Positions 42,586 to 53,212 of a DNA stretch of 64,000 nt are shown here, one piece after another; position 1 is the stretch's first letter, and each line of letters starts with the position of its first letter. The DNA comes from Chloroflexota bacterium. Its GTDB lineage: Bacteria > Chloroflexota > Anaerolineae > Anaerolineales > Anaerolineaceae. Made by a program: the position numbers and the translations under genes. Under the pieces are notes generated by a model. The model worked only from the letters and a program-made list of their open reading frames with translations, was not told where the DNA came from and made no database searches. The stretch is taken from contig JAJXZS010000031.1 in the NCBI GenBank assembly GCA_021779955.1, positions 1-64,000 of the forward strand. Direction: 5' to 3'.

Positions 42586-44091
42586 TTGGGGTCTTATTTG
42601 ACTGCAGTCCAAAATGGAGACTTGAACCTGGTGTTTCGCCGCTGCCGCGCTCTCAAATGGATGCTGTTGTTCGTTTTAAGCCTGATGCTGGCTGCGTGCT
42701 CGGGCAATGGAAACAACGGAGTACTGGCTGCGGGCAAAACTTACGAGGTTGCTCCCGGTTTTCGCGAGTTCTACCAGACCTTGGGCGGAGAAGACGTGCT
42801 CGGCCCAGCCATTTCCGAGAATTTCTCCTTCCAGTCGCTCCAGTGCCAGTACACCGTCAATACGCTCCTGTGCATGAACCCCGCCGCCACCGACGCGTCG
42901 CGGTTCAGCCTCTATCCCCTCGGCATCCCCATGAATGTCCGCGAAGATCCGGCTGCCAGCCCCACCCAGGGCAGTGGGGTCGTTGTCAATGGCTACGAGA
43001 TCTATGAAGAGTTCCTGACGCTTTACGAAAAACTTTCAGGCAGCCAGTATGCCGGAGCCCCTCTGACCCAGGTGCGTCTGAACTATTCCCAGCAGCGCAT
43101 CGAGCAATTCTTCGAGAATGTCGGCTTCTATCGGAAATTCAGCGATCCTCCGGGTCAGGTCCACCTTCTGGCGTACGGCGCATTTTCCTGCGAAAAGAAC
43201 TGCAACTACAGTCCGAGTGTGGATGCGCTGATCATCAGCTCGACTCAAGCGGTTGATGACGAGCCATTCCTCGCCGGCCTGGGCAAGATCGGCGGCGCAA
43301 CCATCTTCGGTCGTCCTCTCACCCAACCCTACATCGCTTCCGATGGCTTCGAAGAGCAGGTCTACGAAAACGCCGTGCTCTACGCGCCACCTGGCAACAC
43401 CTCGGCAGTCAAGCTGCGCCCGCTTTCGATCCTGCTCAATCTGAATCGTACAGATCCCGGGCCAAAAATCTACGGCAGCCAGGATGGTGTCGTCTTCTAT
43501 CCCACTTCGGGCGAACTCGGTTATCACGTGCCGCTCGATTTCGACCGCTTCATCACCGCCCACGGCGGTCTGGATGTCTCGGGCAATCCCATCGCTGAAG
43601 TATACGAAGTGGCACCAGGGACTTACCGTCAATGCTTCGAGAATTATTGCCTCGATTACAATCCGTTGGCAGAATCAGATAAAGTAACTCTCGCCCCCCT
43701 GGGCAAATCCTACCTCGACCAGCTCCAAAAACAGACGACCTCGCAGGAGCTGTTCACCTTCAGCCCCGATACGGTCTCCCTGCAAGCGTCCGAGCAATCC
43801 AAGCAGATCGCACCCGACGCATCGCAGACAATTCAAATCCTGGTCAGTCGCAAGTCCGACGGGCAGCCGCTCGCCAACCTCGAAGCCGATCTCGATGTCA
43901 CCCTGCCGGTTGACACACACTACACCGCTGCGTTCCCCGCAACCCAATCCGATGGAAAATCTACGGTCACAGTTCCTGCGATGACCGGTTATCCGAACGG
44001 ATCGATCCTTGTTTATCGCGTTTGTCTGAAAACTGCCACAACCGACCCGGTCTGCGCGACGGGCAGCTACATCCTCTGGAAAACTCCCTGA
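42586..44091 (+). CDS. Secreted lipoprotein with LGFP-like repeats
   Basis: About 500-aa lipoprotein of unknown function. A signal with lipobox LAAC (MLLFVLSLMLAACSGN) is followed by several repeats of the type FREFYQTLGGEDVLGPAIS, LSGSQYAGAPLTQV, IGGATIFGRPLTQP and ITAHGGLDVSGNPIAEV, each followed by a QQRIEQFFENVGFYR-like strand. This LG-x-P-[IL] pattern recalls LGFP/wall-binding repeats. A C-terminal beta domain of about 120 residues (VSLQASEQSKQIAPDA onward) looks like an Ig or carboxypeptidase-regulatory fold. The start is uncertain: TTG 42586 has AAGAAGG upstream, but ATG 42660 directly precedes the signal core. Confidence 0.75.
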   Translation: MGSYLTAVQNGDLNLVFRRCRALKWMLLFVLSLMLAACSGNGNNGVLAAGKTYEVAPGFREFYQTLGGEDVLGPAISENFSFQSLQCQYTVNTLLCMNPAATDASRFSLYPLGIPMNVREDPAASPTQGSGVVVNGYEIYEEFLTLYEKLSGSQYAGAPLTQVRLNYSQQRIEQFFENVGFYRKFSDPPGQVHLLAYGAFSCEKNCNYSPSVDALIISSTQAVDDEPFLAGLGKIGGATIFGRPLTQPYIASDGFEEQVYENAVLYAPPGNTSAVKLRPLSILLNLNRTDPGPKIYGSQDGVVFYPTSGELGYHVPLDFDRFITAHGGLDVSGNPIAEVYEVAPGTYRQCFENYCLDYNPLAESDKVTLAPLGKSYLDQLQKQTTSQELFTFSPDTVSLQASEQSKQIAPDASQTIQILVSRKSDGQPLANLEADLDVTLPVDTHYTAAFPATQSDGKSTVTVPAMTGYPNGSILVYRVCLKTATTDPVCATGSYILWKTP

Positions 44092-45060
44092 TTACGGCCG
44101 GGTTTCGGCGAAAACTGCAACCCTGGCTATGACACCCTGAATCGAATAGACATTCAGAGAAAAAGGCACGCCGCTTCCGCTCGAAGTGTCGATCGCGATA
44201 TCCAGCCTGCGCACGCCGTTCACTTTTCCCTGGTCATCATAGCTGACCGCTGTGATGGTGAGTGTCTTGGCGCCTCCTGCTGCCTCTGTATAAACGCCCT
44301 GCCCTGTGATCGAAGCTGAATAACCATCCGGAGAAATGACGATCTCAGGATTGCCAGGCTGGATACCTGGCGCCCCCGGCGTGGATTCGACATTGCTTGC
44401 AGTCAACACGTTCAGCGTGATCGAATATTGTGAAGCCACCGGAGGTGGGAAGTATGCATACAAGGGCAGGCTTGCGCCTGATGCCAGTTCAGCAATCGGG
44501 AACAGGGCATTTTGGGTTACAGCGGTGCCGGTCTGCGTATCCGTAAGCTGGAATTCAGCCGAGAAGTTGGTCAACGCGTTTTCCTGCTGATTGTTCACCT
44601 GGGCAAAGCAATACAAACCGCCGCTGGCCGCGGGGACGCACTCTGTCGATGCTACCGCGACCGGGACCGTCGTAGCCTCAAGCGGCGAAGGAGTAAGTTG
44701 ATTTTGCTGCGGCTGGGGAATGATCAACTTGGTGCCCACCGGCATCATATACGGATCGACGGTCGGATTGGCTGCTTTCAGTTCATCGACGGTGATCCCA
44801 TTCTTCCAGGCGATCACACCCAGAGTATCCTTCTCTTTTACAACGTATATGACAGGAGTGGGAGAAGGTGTTGGCGATGGCGTGGCGGTGGGAGCATTCT
44901 TTGGCGTGGCCGTGACGGTGGGCGTTTGGGTGATCGTAGAATAGGCCGTCAGGTTGCCCGGCTGAGTTGATTGGGCGGGATTTTGCGATGGTACAGGCGA
45001 GCAGGCGCCCGCGAATAGACCGGCAAGTATCAATGTTGTAAGGATTTTCAAGGTTCTCAT
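44092..45060 (-). CDS. LysM-domain lipoprotein
   Basis: 322-aa lipoprotein. Lipobox AGAC gives C20. A Thr/Pro-rich linker (about 24-68, with TATPSPTPSPTP) leads to a LysM domain (71-116, IYVVKEKDTLGVIAWKNGIT to VGTKLIIPQP) that binds peptidoglycan or chitin-like glycans. A C-terminal FxLYD-like beta domain covers about 130-225 (YCFAQVNNQQENALTNFSAEF) and further beta-rich sequence to the end. ATG 45060 is chosen because TATAAT lies 7 nt before it (leaderless) and it opens the signal. It is divergent from the TPR gene, 66 nt away. Confidence 0.87.
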   Translation of the reverse strand: MRTLKILTTLILAGLFAGACSPVPSQNPAQSTQPGNLTAYSTITQTPTVTATPKNAPTATPSPTPSPTPVIYVVKEKDTLGVIAWKNGITVDELKAANPTVDPYMMPVGTKLIIPQPQQNQLTPSPLEATTVPVAVASTECVPAASGGLYCFAQVNNQQENALTNFSAEFQLTDTQTGTAVTQNALFPIAELASGASLPLYAYFPPPVASQYSITLNVLTASNVESTPGAPGIQPGNPEIVISPDGYSASITGQGVYTEAAGGAKTLTITAVSYDDQGKVNGVRRLDIAIDTSSGSGVPFSLNVYSIQGVIARVAVFAETRP

Positions 45061-45067
45061 AGGCTGG

Positions 45068-45073
45068 ATTATA
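45068..45073 (-). promoter_or_regulatory. -10 box of a probable leaderless promoter (LysM gene)
   Basis: TATAAT on the minus strand, 7 nt before ATG 45060. Confidence 0.55.
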
Positions 45074-45091
45074 CCTCGACACGCCTCTCGC

Positions 45092-45120
45092 TTGCTGCGT
45101 GCCAAAGGCTATGCTAAACT
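45092..45120 (+). promoter_or_regulatory. Leaderless sigma-70-type promoter (TPR gene)
   Basis: TTGCTG (45092-45097), 17-nt spacer, TAAACT (45115-45120), then 6 nt to the ATG at 45127. No ribosome binding site fits. Confidence 0.6.
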
Positions 45121-45126
45121 ACTGGA

Positions 45127-46860
45127 ATGAATCGTGAGGAGAGGATTTTAGAGGACGCCAAAACAGCAGTCAAGGCCGGCGATCTCGCCCGAGCCCGCGA
45201 ACTGCTCACCGAATACTTCAAAACTCAGCCTAAAAATCCTGATGCCTGGCTGTGGATGAGCGCAGCTGTCACCACGGATGCTGACCGCCTCGCCTGCCTG
45301 AAGCGCGCGCTGGCCATCGACCCCAAAAATCAGGCTGCAATTGCCGGCTTGCGCATGATGGGCGAAAAGGTGGGAAAGCCTCTCCGTCTCATCCGCACAG
45401 AGCCGGTCATCGAAAAAGTAAGCGCCTTCCAAAAGTTTCTGGATGAAAAGCTGCCTGTATTTCTGGCCACCGCGAAAGAAAAGCCGGTGCTTTACGGCGT
45501 TTCAGCATTCGCGCTGCTGGTTCTCTTCATTGTAGGAGTATTCTCGCTCTTCGCACCCAAAAATCAAAATGATCCCAATGACATTATGCGCTGGGCGACC
45601 CCACTGCCAACGAACACACCCACCCCGGTCCCCACTCCAACCTACATCGGTCCCCAACCACTTTGGATGAAGTTGGAAGCTACCTTCACCCCAACAGCCA
45701 TGTTCGTGGCCACGCCGCATAGCCGCATGGAAGCTTATTCAGCCGGAATGAAGGCGTACGAGCAGCAGAATTGGCCCAGGGCGGTTGAGTATCTCAACCA
45801 GGCCCTCGCCTCGGAACCTAACTCGCCTGACATTCTCTACCATCTTGGGGATGCTTATCGCTTTTTGGATCGCTACCCTGATGCTGAAACAGCCTACAAC
45901 AAAGCAATTGATGTCGATGCTTCATTCGCCCCTGCCTATCTTGGTCTTGGGAGAGTTTATATCTATGGGCCTTCACCTGATCTCAACCAGGCTCAAGTAA
46001 TGCTGGAGCAGGCGATCGTCCTCAACAACACCTTGTTCGAGGCTTATCTCGAACTTGCGCACGTCGCCATCCTGAATAAAGACCCGGACCTGGCGTTAAA
46101 CTGGATCAGCCGCCTCAATGGCTTGCTTCCCGAAACCGCCCAGGCTGATTACTATCTCGCATACGCTTATTATCTTAAAGGCGATCCGGCTCAGGCGTTG
46201 CCTGCCATTCAGAAAGCCAATCAATTGGATCTGACGCTCCTGCCGGTTTATCTCTTGTGGGGACAGATCCTTCAGCAGAATGGCGATTTCAAAGCATCGC
46301 TTGATCCGACCAGCACATACCTTACCTATGCGCCAACCGATACCAGCGGCATACTCACGCTGGCGTCCGGCTACTTCCATATCGGCGAATATGACCCTGC
46401 GATGACTGCACTGACCACGGTTATCGACACCCGCCCCGATATCATCGAAGCTTACCTCATGCGGGCTCAGATCTACATGGCCAGGCAGGATTATCCAAAC
46501 GCCCAGGCTGATTACGAAGCGGTTCTCAAAATCGATCCAAACTCCTTCGATGCCAGCCTTGGACGTGGATTGGCGCTATTTGAAAACAACAATCCGGGAA
46601 GCGCGTACATGCAGTTCACCCACATGGACAAAACGCCAACCAATGATTCCCAAAGGGCACAGCTTGTTTACTGGCAGGCGATGTGCCTGTATACATTAGG
46701 CGAAACGGATAAGGCCATTTCCGCTTTTGAGGCATACCTGGCTTATCCGGTTGAAATTCAAGACCTCAAGGCGCGCGAGAATGCTGAGGCAATTTACCAG
46801 GTATTGACCGCGCCTACACCCACTCCTACTCTTTCTGCTTCTCCATCGCCCACTCCTTAA
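45127..46860 (+). CDS. Membrane TPR-repeat protein with Thr/Pro-rich tail
   Basis: 577-aa protein: an N-terminal cytoplasmic TPR-like pair (residues about 5-75, DLARARELLTEYFKTQPKNPDAW split), a membrane helix (about 120-142) and a long outside region with about nine TPR units between 195 and 555, e.g. WPRAVEYLNQALASEPNSPDI and YPDAETAYNKAIDVDASF. The C-terminus is a low-complexity Thr/Pro/Ser tail (TPTPTLSASPSPTP). TPRs mediate protein-protein contact. It is followed 18 nt later by a PBP-like protein gene on the same strand, suggesting they work together at the envelope. Confidence 0.88.
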   Translation: MNREERILEDAKTAVKAGDLARARELLTEYFKTQPKNPDAWLWMSAAVTTDADRLACLKRALAIDPKNQAAIAGLRMMGEKVGKPLRLIRTEPVIEKVSAFQKFLDEKLPVFLATAKEKPVLYGVSAFALLVLFIVGVFSLFAPKNQNDPNDIMRWATPLPTNTPTPVPTPTYIGPQPLWMKLEATFTPTAMFVATPHSRMEAYSAGMKAYEQQNWPRAVEYLNQALASEPNSPDILYHLGDAYRFLDRYPDAETAYNKAIDVDASFAPAYLGLGRVYIYGPSPDLNQAQVMLEQAIVLNNTLFEAYLELAHVAILNKDPDLALNWISRLNGLLPETAQADYYLAYAYYLKGDPAQALPAIQKANQLDLTLLPVYLLWGQILQQNGDFKASLDPTSTYLTYAPTDTSGILTLASGYFHIGEYDPAMTALTTVIDTRPDIIEAYLMRAQIYMARQDYPNAQADYEAVLKIDPNSFDASLGRGLALFENNNPGSAYMQFTHMDKTPTNDSQRAQLVYWQAMCLYTLGETDKAISAFEAYLAYPVEIQDLKARENAEAIYQVLTAPTPTPTLSASPSPTP

Positions 46861-46878: not shown

Positions 46879-49752
46879 GTGCAAAAATCCGACATTTATT
46901 TCTTGCTGAAGCGGCGCCGTAACCAAAAACTCCGGGCCAGGTCGAAAACCCGGGGATTTGCTTCGTATTTCGTCAAAGGACTGCTCGCCGCGGTACTCGT
47001 TGCGATTACCGGCCTGCTCATCTGGGGCACATGGGAATATTCGCGGATCACCGCCAATCTCCCATCCACCGGCGAGCTAGCCCTTCTCCTGGACCGAACG
47101 CATGGCGAACTGCTGACCCCAACCCGAATTGTCGATCGCACGGGAAGCGTCGTTCTGGCCGAACTGGGCAATCCGGGAATTCCACAGCAATTCCTCTCCA
47201 TCGACCCCGCTGCAGCTCCCCATTTCAGCCCCAATCTTCTTGATGTCGTCATCCAGGTGATCCAACCGGATTTCTGGCAAAGCAGCGGCGTCGACTTTCC
47301 GACGCTCACCAACCCTGACGCCCGCACCATCGCAGAGCGCCTGGTTCTGGGCATTCTGCTGCCCGGTGAACCGGCATCCCCCTTGCGCGGCTTGCGCATG
47401 CGCCTGCTTGCCGCGCAGGTAGTCCATGACTACGGACGCGCGCAGCTGCTCGAGTGGTATCTCAACAGCGTCTACCTTGGGCACGATGTCTATGGTGTCG
47501 ATGCAGCTTCGCGCCTGTATCTCGGCAAATCCGCTCAGGAGCTCAGCCTGGCGCAGTCCGCGCTCATCGCTGGCCTGATGGATGCCCCTGCCTTGAACCC
47601 TCTCGATTCGCCTGCGGCATCCATCGATCTGCAGCGTGGAATCCTCGCCTGGTTGCAGCAGAATGGCAAATTGGACTCTGCCGCAGTTGCTCTTGCTTTG
47701 CAAGAGAAGCTGGAATTTCAAGCAGCTTCTGCGTCCGCCAGGTCATCAAATTCCGGCCTTGCCGATCATGTAATCGACCAGCTTGGGCCTGTTCTGGGAA
47801 TCGATCGTCTCAAGCGTGGAGGGTTGACCATAATCACCACCATCGACGCAGAGTTGCAGGCGCAATTGAACTGCACGGCCATCACTCAACTGGAGCGGAT
47901 CGAGAATTCGTCCACAGGCCAGGCTTCAAATGAAAATGACTGCCCTGCCTCAACTTTGCTTCCCACCCAGAACTTTTCAACCTCGTCCTACTCAGGCCTT
48001 GCCGCGCGAGGAATCGTTGCGGATCCGAAAACCGGCGAAGTATTGGCATACCTGGCGCCTACGCTGCGATCTGGTGAATCTCTATCAGATGGTGATACCG
48101 AAGCTGGCTCTTTGCTTTCTCCCGTGGTCGCGCTGGCAGGATTTGCCAGGGGAGAGTCGCCCGCCAGCTTGATGTGGGACATCCCAAGCTCACTGCCCGC
48201 CAACCTCAGCGGCTCTGCCAACCCGGACGGCGCTTCGCACGGACCGGTGAGCCTCCGGTCTGCAATTGCCAATGACTATGTGGTGCCCATCGCCCAACTC
48301 GCCCAGCAGATCAGCCCCGCAGTCACATGGCAAATGGCTTCTTCTCTTGGCCTGGATTCTTACCTCACCTCGCCCGATTCCGCCGAACCTTTGTTCAGAG
48401 GCAGCGATGTGCCGCTTCTTGAGCTTGCGCAAGTCTATGCGACGCTCGCAAATGCCGGCACCCGCACCGGCGTGGAAAACGTTGCGTCCGGCCAGATAGA
48501 CCTCAATCTCGTGATGCGGGTCGAAACCGCTTCGCATCGTGTACTCATAGATAACTCAAATCCTCAAAAACTCGCTGTCGTCAGTGAATCGCTGGCCTAC
48601 CTGATCAACAACGTTCTCTCGGATGCTGCTGCCCGCTATCCCAGCCTTGGAAATCCCAATGCACTCGAGATTGACCGGCCTGCGGCAGCCAAGATCGGAC
48701 AGACGCAATCTGGCAACCGGGTATGGACCGCAGGCTACACTCCGCAGCGTGTGGTTATCATCGGCGTTCAAACCGCCGTCGAGCCTGCATCTGCGGCGCT
48801 CCAGCCGGTGATGGCTGCGGGATTGTGGAACGCGATGATGCAATATTCAAGCGCATCCCTTCCTGCCGAGGATTGGGCGCGGCCGCCAGACATCAGCGAA
48901 ATGCAGGTCTGTTACCCATCCGGGCTTTTGCCCACAGCTGCCTGCCCTGAAGTTGTACGTGAAGTCTTCCTTTCAGGCAACGAGCCCACTTACCCGGATA
49001 ATTTATATCAGAAGGTAAAGATCAATCGCGAGACGGGCTTGCTGGCAACCGTCTTTACTCCCTCCGACCTCGTTGATGAAAAATTGACCATGGATGTGCC
49101 TGCAGCAGCCCGAGAATGGGCGCTTGCTGCCGGTTTGCCTCTTACGCCAGGTGGCTATGACGCGATTCAAGCCGTTTCTCAAGACCCCCAGGTGAAGATC
49201 AGTTCTCCGCTTCTTTTCGCTCCCGTGCACGGCAAGGTCGAAATTCGCGGCACCGCAAACAATTCTGCCTTCAAGTCCTATTCGATTCAGGTCGGCGAGG
49301 GCATCAATCCATCCGAATGGATCCAGATCGGAGAATCCGGGTCGACCCCCGTGACTGATGGCGTTCTTGCCACCTGGGATACCCAGGGGTCGAATGGCCT
49401 TTACGCAGTGCGTTTATCCGTCATCGACCAATCCAACCAGGTCAAAACCGCGATCATCCAGGTGACGGTGGACAACGTCGCGCCCCAGGTCACCATTCTT
49501 TATCCGCAGCCTGATGCCGTGGTAACACCCGTCAATGGCATGGTCACATTCAATGCCGAAGCCGAAGATGACATCGCGGTCGCTCGCGTTGAATGGTGGC
49601 TGGACGGCAAGAAAGTCAACGAATCGACCGCTGCGCCGTTCTACTTTATCTGGCAAGCCACTCCCGGAAAGCACAAGCTCAGTCTCATGGTTTGGGATAC
49701 TGCGGGCAACCAATCCACATCCGCCGAACTGAACTATACTGTTGCCAAATAG
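46879..49752 (+). CDS. PBP1-type protein with catalytic residues lost (GT51 + transpeptidase + Ig-like)
   Basis: 957-aa class A penicillin-binding-protein homologue starting at GTG 46879. N-terminal helix about 33-52, GT51 domain about 70-280, transpeptidase-like domain about 375-650, C-terminal Ig-like domains to 957. The GT51 fold is recognisable (LEWYLNSVYLGHDVYGVDAA; YLGKSAQELSLAQSALIAGL), but the EDxxFW motif is IQPDFW (residues 128-133), so the first catalytic Glu is gone, and RKxxE is RGLRM (170-174), so the second is gone too. In the transpeptidase the SxxK motif is SLLS (411-414) and KTG is KIG (605-607). It is most likely an inactive scaffold or sensor. It follows a TPR gene by 18 nt. 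Confidence 0.88.
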   Translation: MQKSDIYFLLKRRRNQKLRARSKTRGFASYFVKGLLAAVLVAITGLLIWGTWEYSRITANLPSTGELALLLDRTHGELLTPTRIVDRTGSVVLAELGNPGIPQQFLSIDPAAAPHFSPNLLDVVIQVIQPDFWQSSGVDFPTLTNPDARTIAERLVLGILLPGEPASPLRGLRMRLLAAQVVHDYGRAQLLEWYLNSVYLGHDVYGVDAASRLYLGKSAQELSLAQSALIAGLMDAPALNPLDSPAASIDLQRGILAWLQQNGKLDSAAVALALQEKLEFQAASASARSSNSGLADHVIDQLGPVLGIDRLKRGGLTIITTIDAELQAQLNCTAITQLERIENSSTGQASNENDCPASTLLPTQNFSTSSYSGLAARGIVADPKTGEVLAYLAPTLRSGESLSDGDTEAGSLLSPVVALAGFARGESPASLMWDIPSSLPANLSGSANPDGASHGPVSLRSAIANDYVVPIAQLAQQISPAVTWQMASSLGLDSYLTSPDSAEPLFRGSDVPLLELAQVYATLANAGTRTGVENVASGQIDLNLVMRVETASHRVLIDNSNPQKLAVVSESLAYLINNVLSDAAARYPSLGNPNALEIDRPAAAKIGQTQSGNRVWTAGYTPQRVVIIGVQTAVEPASAALQPVMAAGLWNAMMQYSSASLPAEDWARPPDISEMQVCYPSGLLPTAACPEVVREVFLSGNEPTYPDNLYQKVKINRETGLLATVFTPSDLVDEKLTMDVPAAAREWALAAGLPLTPGGYDAIQAVSQDPQVKISSPLLFAPVHGKVEIRGTANNSAFKSYSIQVGEGINPSEWIQIGESGSTPVTDGVLATWDTQGSNGLYAVRLSVIDQSNQVKTAIIQVTVDNVAPQVTILYPQPDAVVTPVNGMVTFNAEAEDDIAVARVEWWLDGKKVNESTAAPFYFIWQATPGKHKLSLMVWDTAGNQSTSAELNYTVAK

Positions 49753-50452: not shown

Positions 50453-51877
50453 TTAACTGCCGAAAGTCCCGATCTGTGACAGGATGGTCGACTGAACATT
50501 AGCCGAAGGTGTCATCAGCCACAGCACATTCGAGCCGGAGATGCGCATGGTCATCAAGCCGACGTCACTGGTTTGCCAGGTCGAACTCGTGCTTGTGCTT
50601 GATTGCGCATTGCCCCAGCGCTGTGAGCCGTACTTCAGGCTGGCATTCCAGAATTCGGTGGCATCGTTACTTGTGTCCCAGGTGCTCTCCCAGACCATGG
50701 CGATATTGCTGTTGTTCTGATCGGTGTAGAAGAGATAAGTATCCCCGCCCCATCCGGCTGCGGCAGCGTTGGCAGTAGTTGTATCCAACCGGTAGGATGG
50801 CTGAATTCCATATCCCAGGATGAGAGAGATGTACCACTCGCCCATCACATTGCGGTCGATTTCACTCCAACCGGAGCCCAATGTGGACGTAAAGTCCGGA
50901 AGATCGACGGTAACCGGCGTGTCACTGGGGTACTTTTCAGGGTGAAGGATTTGCTCTGTGCTGACAGGCGGATTCTTGTACGCCTCATCCACGCCGTTCC
51001 AACCGTTGGCTGTATACAGCGACTGGACAAACGCCAACCCTTGCACGTATGGAAAGACAAAATCCTGTTTCATGAATGCGGGCGCTGAATCGTACACGGG
51101 CGTCGTCAAGTTTTGATAAAAGGTCTGGATTTGCTGTTTGTCGGTCGATGTGCTGTCGAAAGTGACCCAATACGTCTCGGAAAGCGTCGCGTCGCCTTCC
51201 ATCAAGGCGGTGACAGCCGCGCAGTACTCGGTGTTTACCTTACAATTGTCCGTGTTCACCTTCAAGCCGTTTTCGATATCATAGTTCTGGTCCTGCAATG
51301 TGTGCGTGAATTCGTGCGAGTAAGTCATCTTTTCGGGTCCGCCAAACGACTCGTTTGAGATCACATACATCGTCTTGGTTTTGTCGTCATAATATCCGGC
51401 AACTTGCTCAGAGTAAAGCTTGATATAGAACTGGCGCAAATCGAAGTTCGGTGCAAGTAGCCCAAACGCAGCAAGGGTGGTCTCATCGCGCTGGGCATCC
51501 TGGGCCGTGTAGTCGGCAAAGAATTCGTTGATCACGTTCTCCTTGAGTTGTGAAGAGGTCAACAACTCGCGGTTGAACGGACCCTTCAACTGCAACCCTC
51601 GATAGCTGATCACCTGTTGCTGGATCTTATCCATCGCGCTGGCAATATCGGCTGGAAGTGTAGCTCCAGGTGTGGGAATCACGGATGTTCCGCCCGGCGT
51701 TTCGCTTTGAGACGTTTGAGTTTCCAGGGTGATCGACTGTGTGGGCGATGCGGCCGGCACAAGCGGTTGGTTGATCGGAATCCTCAAAACAAAAATCCCG
51801 ACAATCAGGGCAATACTGATCAGTACGCAAGCACTCAAAACAATGATAATGATCGTAAGTACCGGTTTATTTTTCAT
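50453..51877 (-). CDS. Membrane-anchored gluzincin-type metallopeptidase, unknown family
   Basis: 474-aa protein with an N-terminal helix (about 8-33), a Ser/Thr/Pro-rich spacer (about 38-75) and an extracytoplasmic domain. It holds a zinc-peptidase signature: SHEFTHTLQDQ (H188, E189, H192) and, 35 residues later, LMEGDATLSE (E227), the third ligand spacing and EGDA motif of gluzincins. The rest is aromatic-rich with many W, Y and N residues. No precise family is recognised. It is followed by the HAD gene. GGAGG precedes the ATG. Possible role: processing of surface proteins or wall peptides. Confidence 0.8.
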   Translation of the reverse strand: MKNKPVLTIIIIVLSACVLISIALIVGIFVLRIPINQPLVPAASPTQSITLETQTSQSETPGGTSVIPTPGATLPADIASAMDKIQQQVISYRGLQLKGPFNRELLTSSQLKENVINEFFADYTAQDAQRDETTLAAFGLLAPNFDLRQFYIKLYSEQVAGYYDDKTKTMYVISNESFGGPEKMTYSHEFTHTLQDQNYDIENGLKVNTDNCKVNTEYCAAVTALMEGDATLSETYWVTFDSTSTDKQQIQTFYQNLTTPVYDSAPAFMKQDFVFPYVQGLAFVQSLYTANGWNGVDEAYKNPPVSTEQILHPEKYPSDTPVTVDLPDFTSTLGSGWSEIDRNVMGEWYISLILGYGIQPSYRLDTTTANAAAAGWGGDTYLFYTDQNNSNIAMVWESTWDTSNDATEFWNASLKYGSQRWGNAQSSTSTSSTWQTSDVGLMTMRISGSNVLWLMTPSANVQSTILSQIGTFGS

Positions 51878-51940: not shown

Positions 51941-53212
51941 TTATGGAGAGTTCAGTGATTTCAAGCCGGCTTCAGCTTCCGCGTATCCCGGGTGCGCTTC
52001 AAGAGCCCTTTCGAATGATTTCCTGGCATAGTCCACCTGGCCGCTCAAGATGTAGGCATGGCCCTTCCAGGTGAGAGCCTCTTCCGAATTGGGCGTCCGG
52101 TCGAGCGCATAATTTGCAAGCACGAACAGGTCATCGATGTTGCCGGTCTTGTAAGCTGCTTCGAGCGGCCCGAATTGATAGCGCAGCATCCGCTGTGGAA
52201 GGCCAATCCCGCGCGCCCTGGCAAACGCCGCTGCAGCCGCATCGAAATCCTTGGCGCCGAGCAGGGAATCGCCCAGGTTGAACCAGGCGAAGGCATCGTT
52301 TGGATTGGAGTCAGTTTCCCGCTTTGCTGCTGCCGCTGCGATGTTCATATTCGAGACCGCGTCCCAATCAGCCCCGAATGCTCCCCTCACCTTCGACTCG
52401 TCGGTTGTTTTGTACACGACGAAAACCAGGCGATTGAACGGCTTCCAGGTTTGGGCAAGCAGATCCATGGCGATTTTTCTGTTGGGACCGTAATACGAAT
52501 CCTGGACACTCCATTCTCGGGTTCCGAGGTCGTAGCCCGTAATGAGCAGATAATGAGCTGCCCAGAGATCGTCACCAGGCCAGAAGCTTTCCTCCAGCTT
52601 GAATGATTCTTCGATAATCACTGGCGTGCCGGCAGCAAGCAGCCGCATGACCAGTTCATCCGTCCCGTTGACCCGCACGATTGTCGATAACCCCAATCCG
52701 GTCTGCGCAACGTAATCTGCCATCTCAGACGGGTTGACATTCTTATCGGTATCCAGGGGTTTGATCACCGTCGAAATGTCGTACTGATCGCCCTTCCATC
52801 CAAATATGCGCAGTCCAAGCGCCAGCGTAGCCGGGCCGCAATTGTTCCAGCCCTGGATATCTTTTTTCACATCGAATTCGGGCGGAGTGAGCGTGACCGA
52901 TTGGGGGAGCGCTTGCGCTGTCGCGGTAAGGTCCGCTGCGTCGGTAATTACATCGATTGCCGACCCGCTGCCTCCGGGCGCGAAGAGACCTGATTGTCCG
53001 CTCTCGAACCCGCCTGCCACGGGAATTCCACCCTTGGGAAGGAGCACCCCCCGCGCATAGGCCTTGGCCTCGTCGATCTTCCAGGTGATCGTCTCGCGCA
53101 ATTCCGAATCGAAGATCACCAGGCCTGTTGCAGCGATCAGCAGCACGATCTTTACCGCTAATACCGCCTTCTTATGCTTATTCGTCTTTGCTTCCAGGGC
53201 ACTCTCGCTCAT
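51941..53212 (-). CDS. C39-like peptidase domain protein with TPR tail
   Basis: 423-aa protein with an N-terminal helix (about 18-35), a papain-like C39 domain (about 115-265) and a C-terminal TPR region (about 295-420). The presumed catalytic triad is C125 in NNCGPATL, H220 in WAAHYLLITGYD and D238 in SVQDSYYG, all in normal order for the C39_2 family, so it is likely active. C39-like proteins cleave double-glycine leaders in bacteriocin export, but the secreted stand-alone type is mostly of unknown target. A TAAAAT box 6 nt before the ATG suggests a leaderless mRNA. It precedes miaB, divergently. Confidence 0.85.
   Translation of the reverse strand: MSESALEAKTNKHKKAVLAVKIVLLIAATGLVIFDSELRETITWKIDEAKAYARGVLLPKGGIPVAGGFESGQSGLFAPGGSGSAIDVITDAADLTATAQALPQSVTLTPPEFDVKKDIQGWNNCGPATLALGLRIFGWKGDQYDISTVIKPLDTDKNVNPSEMADYVAQTGLGLSTIVRVNGTDELVMRLLAAGTPVIIEESFKLEESFWPGDDLWAAHYLLITGYDLGTREWSVQDSYYGPNRKIAMDLLAQTWKPFNRLVFVVYKTTDESKVRGAFGADWDAVSNMNIAAAAAKRETDSNPNDAFAWFNLGDSLLGAKDFDAAAAAFARARGIGLPQRMLRYQFGPLEAAYKTGNIDDLFVLANYALDRTPNSEEALTWKGHAYILSGQVDYARKSFERALEAHPGYAEAEAGLKSLNSP

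Follow-up and report, generated by a model that had tools for sequence, protein, structure and literature searches.

A class A penicillin-binding protein of the Anaerolineaceae with degenerate active sites

Class A penicillin-binding proteins (PBPs) of the PBP1A/PBP1C type combine a transmembrane (TM) helix, a GT51 glycosyltransferase (GT) domain, a linker, a transpeptidase domain, and a C-terminal module. PBP 2B of Bacillus subtilis belongs to another PBP class. It is reported to have a crucial structural role without catalysis (PMC5656894); unlike the protein described here, it is normally active and is inactive only as a made mutant. The gene in question lies in a 64,000-nucleotide stretch (the window) of contig JAJXZS010000031.1, assembly GCA_021779955.1, from a Chloroflexota bacterium (family Anaerolineaceae, order Anaerolineales, class Anaerolineae). 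Its product has the PBP1A/PBP1C layout and differs from that type in its lost catalytic sets, in a short jaw of the GT domain, and in scores far under the TIGR02074 and TIGR02073 cut-offs. In length and C-terminal module it resembles intact orthologues found elsewhere in the class, in different families and orders; these are its neighbours in trees and differ from it in retaining the catalytic residues (18/18).

Catalytic columns and predicted fold

A preliminary description made from the sequence had correctly placed the open 957-codon frame and its 18-nucleotide distance from a TPR gene upstream (Table 1), and had listed four altered motifs: IQPDFW, RGLRM, SLLS, and KIG. We read the catalytic columns from a MAFFT alignment of 70 rows, comprising 42 degenerate sequences (the window protein included), 7 intact orthologues, and 21 canonical class A PBPs of related genomes; the degenerate rows come from a search of 61 genomes, one named Anaerolineaceae record (L033), and stretches fetched afterwards. 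All four motifs fall in catalytic columns, and the alignment does not place the catalytic residues elsewhere in the chain. The statement that every key residue had been replaced stands for the two GT glutamates and the SxxK Lys and fails for Ser411 and Lys605, which are kept; additional to the earlier list are the losses of the SxN Ser and Asn, a change in motif II, and the shorter GT jaw. As judged from these columns, both active sites of the window protein are lost, Ser411 and Lys605 excepted.

In the GT domain, the first catalytic glutamate (Glu1) is absent in 40 of the 42 degenerate rows and the second (Glu2) in 37 (three of each via a gap); two rows retain Glu1 and five retain Glu2, and none has both. 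The motif I Asp is still present in 25 of the 42 and the motif II Gln in seven, changes at these two positions not being clade-wide. The motif II Gln is replaced by Glu in 29/42 degenerate rows, 0/7 intact orthologues, and 0/21 canonical PBPs. In the MGT of S. aureus, polymerization is reported to be abolished by D101N and by Q136E (PMC6053601); by motif order these residues correspond to Q129 and E153 of the window protein, the second being the identical Gln-to-Glu change. The same article (PMC6053601) ascribes a role in lipid II recognition to the jaw with its flap, a region situated between motifs I and II. The jaw span, from Glu1 to the motif II Ile, is 23 residues in the window protein, compared with 35 in 20/20 canonical PBPs and 34-35 in 17 of 18 intact orthologues; among 45 degenerate rows it is 21-25 in 38, 28-29 in three, and 7-16 in four. 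On five counts, then, the GT domain is expected to be inactive (Glu1, the Asp, the motif II Gln, Glu2, and the short jaw).

In the transpeptidase domain, the SxxK Lys is absent in all 42 degenerate rows, its column being mixed (T, S, L, A, N, D, P, and H). The SxN Ser is also absent in 42/42, with Asp instead in 34, while the nucleophile position is Ser or Thr in 37 rows and the KTG Lys position is Lys in 33. We found no second active site in the window protein: its sole SxxK string is at 796, in an immunoglobulin-like (Ig-like) domain, and its sole K[ST]G string is KTG at 384, outside the active-site column. In PBPs the SxN Ser sits beside both Lys residues. The Asp at the SxN position and the KTG Lys occur together in 32 of the 42 degenerate rows, with neither present in seven and one alone in three (P = 1e-5, Fisher's test, relatedness not removed). 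On the tree, well-supported branches yield three independent pairs, of which two change the same way, none the opposite way, and one shows no difference. A structural D466-K605 salt bridge could plausibly have taken the place of the catalytic network; three independent pairs are too few to prove the bridge, which we put forward as a hypothesis.

Misalignment is ruled out as a source of this pattern: The position of the columns is confined by the intact orthologues and the canonical PBPs, and the window protein has no alternative SxxK or active-site KTG. A sequencing or frame error is likewise ruled out, because the losses are found in as many as 41 genomes of the order, besides the named record.

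The window protein has Pfam matches above the cut-offs to Transgly (residues 151-255, 67 bits), Transpeptidase (379-623, 27.5 bits), Big_7, and BiPBP_C; its TM anchor, GT51, and transpeptidase in one chain are the class A PBP architecture. The top NCBIfam model is the PBP1A subfamily TIGR02074, at 186.5 bits (below its cut-off of 508.75), and the PBP1C equivalog TIGR02073 gives 129 bits (below 494.2); three intact relatives score 476-499 bits with TIGR02074, all below the cut-off, and one of them reaches that of TIGR02073. An AlphaFold2 model of the full-length 957-residue protein (55 aligned sequences) has a mean predicted local distance difference test (pLDDT) of 90.5 and a predicted template-modelling score (pTM) of 0.75. 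The first rows of a Foldseek search against the PDB are class A PBPs, and the best VIA-align row is Acinetobacter baumannii PBP1A (Z 39.9, root mean square deviation 4.9, 482 residues aligned). Because of the AlphaFold2 confidence and these two sets of matches, we conclude that the class A PBP fold is retained in the model, which agrees with the preliminary description.

The only cysteines of the window protein are C332, C355, C678, and C689. C678 and C689 are present in 42/42 degenerate rows, 7/7 intact orthologues, and 21/21 canonical PBPs; C332 and C355 are present in 39/42, 7/7, and 0/21, respectively. Since these four conserved residues are the sole cysteines of the protein, two disulfides are likely. 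A Foldseek search with the C-terminal module returned mainly Ig-, fibronectin type III-, and cadherin-like rows, with no specific ligand indicated. The second Ig-like domain is absent in some shorter orthologues (e.g., L032 and L034). The Ig-like domains had been read as extras that support an assembly platform; they were not added after the loss, and intact orthologues also have them.

Table 1. Features of the degenerate PBP gene and its neighbours in the window
Feature	Coordinates	Strand	Description or basis
LysM protein gene	44092..45105	-	Divergent neighbour; in 7/13 long family neighbourhoods (L033 counted)
Membrane TPR protein gene	45127..46860	+	Ends 18 nucleotides upstream of PBP gene
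Degenerate class A PBP gene	46879..49752	+	957 residues, GTG start; open frame; both active sites lost
N-terminal TM helix, ~residues 31-50, preceded by short basic tail	46969..47028	+	Hydropathy; long helix 4-58 in model; topology inferred
GT51 domain, ~residues 111-260	47209..47658	+	Jaw ~11 residues shorter; Pfam and alignment
Motif I: catalytic Glu (Glu1) to I128, adjoining Asp to Q129	47260..47265	+	Alignment
Motif II, (G/A)STITQQ columns: A148-R-T-I-A-E-R154 (Gln to Glu153)	47320..47340	+	Alignment
Motif III, RKxxE: R170-G-L-R-M174 (Glu2 to Met174)	47386..47400	+	Alignment
Transpeptidase-fold domain, ~residues 376-660	48004..48858	+	Pfam, AlphaFold2 model, VIA-align
SxxK: S411-L-L-S414 (Lys lost, Ser retained)	48109..48120	+	Alignment
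SxN: D466-Y-V468 (Ser and Asn lost)	48274..48282	+	Alignment
KTG: K605-I-G607 (Lys retained)	48691..48699	+	Alignment
C-terminal module: segment 661-770 (invariant C678, C689) and Ig-like domain 1 (771-867)	48859..49479	+	
Ig-like domain 2 (Big_7/BiPBP_C)	49480..49749	+	Pfam

Distribution, selection, and other wall synthases

The losses are shared among the orthologues (42/42 rows). The degenerate rows represent 41 genomes in 10 family groups of the order (f1, f2, f5-f9, and f12-f14) together with the Anaerolineaceae record, and the seven intact orthologues of the order (L037, L039-L043, and L045) belong to groups f3, f4, f10, f11, and f15. The residues scored as catalytic (GT Glu1 and Glu2, SxxK Ser and Lys, SxN Ser and Asn, and KTG Lys) are intact in 7/7 of these orthologues and in all 20-21 canonical controls having a letter in the column; with those from outside the order (L095-L097 and L100-L107), all 18 intact orthologues retain them. 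Four further f12 rows fetched later (L090-L093) are also degenerate, three of them retaining Glu2.

In a tree built without the motif columns, 41 degenerate rows form one side of one branch (SH-aLRT 99), beside the intact orthologues, and both groups are separate from the canonical PBPs. The tree of the 41 degenerate rows was made by a quick method and has several long branches. The 16 loci taken from outside the order comprise 11 intact and five degenerate orthologues; they were hand-picked, mostly by score, among the matches listed and give no prevalence estimate. A wider tree with these loci needs at least two changes of state and places 32 rows of the order on one branch (support 88). These trees fit a single loss that predates the order as well as multiple losses.

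The five degenerate loci from outside the order (L094, L098, L099, L108, and L109) belong to three further family groups within the class (f33, f46, and f58) and show changes of their own: The SxxK Lys is Arg in L099, L108, and L109, and Glu1 is kept in L094, L098, and L099. The losses in these three groups are possibly independent of that in the order. Apparent internal stops in G057, G044, and G119 were rejected as a sign of broken genes; L051, L052, and L109 have frames without a stop as far as query position 866, and we take the stops to be alignments running beyond the gene end. A phylum sample (61 genomes, 53 outside the class) gave no clear further case by GT51 score, its rows not being aligned. 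Split or short GT51 matches occur there in G249, G222, G237, and G212. Five genomes of group f64 (G211, G221, G229, G236, and G243; 1.4-1.9 Mb, one contig each) have no GT51 match over the cut-off, a pattern as expected for lineages without peptidoglycan.

We estimated the ratio of nonsynonymous to synonymous substitution (omega) by NG86 over residues 61-957 for seven degenerate pairs, six of which are measurable (L024/L033 is saturated). The four close genus pairs have an omega of 0.077-0.099, L007/L009 has 0.090 (synonymous divergence dS 2.75, near saturation), and the f12 pair L032/L034 has 0.152; the intact pair L039/L040 has 0.179. For the GT domain, the values are 0.035-0.079 in the four genus pairs, 0.227 in L032/L034, and 0.218 in the intact pair. 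The scored frames are open, with L044 cut by a contig end. By these estimates the degenerate orthologues are under continuing purifying selection.

Between clades (35 degenerate and seven intact rows, seven fast or partial rows being left out), the rate of the C-terminal module (661-867) relative to the transpeptidase domain is 1.76 in the intact and 0.59 in the degenerate orthologues. The ratio of these values is 0.33, with 60/60 column bootstraps within 0.26-0.40; for the GT domain the corresponding ratio is 0.82 (range 0.60-1.14). Relative constraint is thus estimated to have shifted approximately threefold, from the transpeptidase domain to the C-terminal module.

The organism's own genome has two GT51 genes, the window gene (69 bits) and an intact class A PBP frame of 1227 residues (202 bits), as well as six transpeptidase-fold matches (four besides both GT51 proteins) and three SEDS matches. 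GT51 scores in the 61-genome set fall in two groups, intact at 175 bits or more and degenerate at 103.4 or less; left out of this grouping were four matches, of which three lie at contig starts (G038:C354, G008:C175, and G023:C4) and one, G041:C712, scores 134 bits. An intact-scoring GT51 is also encoded in 38 of the 40 genomes with a degenerate copy, the exceptions being G002 and G013 (84% complete), and in a further 11-genome set all eight degenerate-bearing genomes (five out of the order) have at least one high-scoring GT51. A complete loss of class A PBP activity from the organism is rejected, given the intact PBP1 that it encodes. Both of its GT51 genes pass the Pfam cut-off and only one has the catalytic residues; because of this, the number of wall synthases can be overestimated when hits to the GT51 and transpeptidase domains are counted.

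The same genome holds an 888-residue frame (L119; G000:C39:8000-12000, minus strand) that fuses SEDS (PF01098, 235 bits) and transpeptidase (PF00905, 38 bits) domains, and its expected SxxK position reads GTGVTAF (by eye, unaligned). This transpeptidase may also be degenerate, which would make it a second candidate pseudo-PBP, fused to a polymerase.

Possible roles of the degenerate protein

Selection on a non-catalytic role, for which the preliminary description had argued, is well supported by the shared losses, open frames, low omega, intact GT51 PBP in 38/40 genomes, and newly conserved residues. With its fold predicted to be kept, its catalytic residues lost, and its sequence under selection, the protein qualifies, by sequence and model, as a pseudoenzyme. 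Since a full-size protein is kept under selection with both sites lost, we infer that it acts by binding rather than catalysis. The explanation we favour, with about an even chance of being correct, is that it is a membrane-anchored noncatalytic scaffold or regulator of wall synthesis. On this view, both catalytic activities of a class A PBP disappeared in ancestors of the lineage, on one occasion or a few, and the protein was kept for binding outside the cytoplasm, anchored in the membrane. Docking onto a partner of the wall-synthesis machinery (candidates are the intact PBP1 and a SEDS/class B pair), or onto the wall itself, may fall to the first Ig-like domain together with the segment after the transpeptidase and its likely disulfide; the dead GT/transpeptidase body could serve as a rigid spacer or allosteric body. 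Such a role would be analogous to the catalysis-independent structural role of B. subtilis PBP 2B, but in a permanent pseudoenzyme. We suggest, tentatively and with less confidence, that the doubly dead PBP has become an allosteric or assembly subunit dedicated to the peptidoglycan machinery (e.g., in a heteromer with the intact PBP1), its pocket rewired as the D466-K605 bridge and its binding centred on the C-terminal module.

Several observations weigh against the scaffold or regulator. The sequence singles out no partner, and the choice of regulation of synthesis over, for example, surface anchoring is a suggestion. The constraint shift is a between-clade ratio that is not mirrored by within-genus omega: Across the four genus pairs, the lowest omega, or one close to it, belongs to the GT domain and not to the C-terminal module, and the GT value for L032/L034 is 0.227. 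No shared neighbour was seen across families when the listed flanks of other families were compared by eye. Of 37 family genomes, 27 have a full-length orthologue and two have fragments (G015 and G016), and eight have no orthologue among the matches listed (G007, G008, G017, G024, G029, G030, G033, and G036), a listing that may lack weak pieces; the gene is therefore dispensable in some lineages.

The main rival, possible though rather doubtful, is that the protein serves the envelope in a structural or surface role, with the PBP body as no more than a membrane anchor and the C-terminal module binding wall glycan, an S-layer, or a sheath component, unrelated to the regulation of synthesis. The increased relative constraint on the C-terminal module is consistent with this, as are the Foldseek matches of that module, mostly modules of surface and glycan-active proteins, and the LysM gene nearby in 7/13 long neighbourhoods. 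However, a GT domain omega of 0.035-0.079 in four close pairs is tighter than would be expected for a mere anchor, the same C-terminal module occurs in intact orthologues, and the Ig-like matches are unspecific. We think it unlikely that the protein is a ligand sensor, with dead pockets that bind lipid II or stem peptides but do not turn them over, and with a signal passed on, within the family, via the TPR membrane protein. Although the pocket substitutions are conserved (Asp at 466 in 34/42, Glu at 153 in 29/42) and the TPR gene adjoins in 17/26 family genomes, the jaw to which a lipid II recognition role is ascribed (PMC6053601) is shortened, Pfam and NCBIfam scans found no signalling domain, and the TPR pairing was not found in 9/26 family genomes or in 5/5 loci of other families. 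The antibiotic sensor that had been proposed for this protein is not supported: The residues for acylation are gone, and the cytosolic tail has only approximately 30 residues before the TM helix. BlaR1/MecR1-type sensors have an acylatable SxxK domain, the Lys of which is absent here in 42/42 rows, and the Pfam and NCBIfam scans found no membrane protease or signalling domain; a beta-lactam sensor role is unlikely.

It is improbable that Ser411 and Lys605 support a different or residual acyl-transfer chemistry; a Ser or Thr at the nucleophile position in 37/42 rows and a Lys at the KTG position in 33/42 would fit it, but the SxxK Lys and SxN Ser are each lost in 42/42, with mixed residues at the former. 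Least probable of all is a gene decaying after loss of need. The long branches of the degenerate clade and the eight of 37 family genomes without an orthologue among the matches listed point that way, against which stand the open frames over 10 family groups, an omega of 0.077-0.152, and the conservation of four cysteines, each in 39-42 of the 42 rows.

Pseudoenzymes as such are already known, and well known among kinases; what we judge to be new is one derived from class A PBPs. No such pseudo-PBP family is described in the open-access literature searched, in part with other questions in view, most subscription journals being outside this coverage. The titles and opening lines of abstracts of open-access articles on inactive PBPs concern made mutants or other subjects, and in an article on the Chloroflexota envelope (PMC13319060) the main text is without the words "penicillin," "PBP," or "transpeptidase." A conserved doubly dead class A PBP family would be a natural separation-of-function experiment, in which the role of a PBP is set apart from its catalysis; the intact orthologues of neighbouring families are ready controls, and the constraint shift points to a testable module.

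Neighbouring genes

The TPR protein has one hydrophobic segment near residues 120-144, with TPR matches on either side. Its gene adjoins the PBP gene in 17 of the 24 readable family flanks, and likewise in the named record L033. It is absent beside L010, L011, L013, L014, L020, L025, and L029 and was not found beside the family copies L046 and L050, giving 17/26 family genomes overall; L015 is at a contig end. It is also absent in 5/5 loci of other families (L022, L026, L028, L031, and L032). Because the pair persists in L076, L077, and L080, where no other window gene was found adjoining, the pairing is probably functional within the family. The TPR protein is not the core of the PBP's function, since the pairing is not universal and catalysis has been lost more widely than the pairing occurs. 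The proposal that this gene supports an assembly platform therefore keeps weak support, from within the family but not from the other-family loci.

Other genes of the window include one at 51944-53212 (minus strand), with a C39-like peptidase match followed by TPRs. Two more, at 42586-44088 (plus strand) and 50456-51877 (minus strand), have no Pfam match at 0.01; their relatives adjoin the PBP gene in several of the fetched neighbourhoods.

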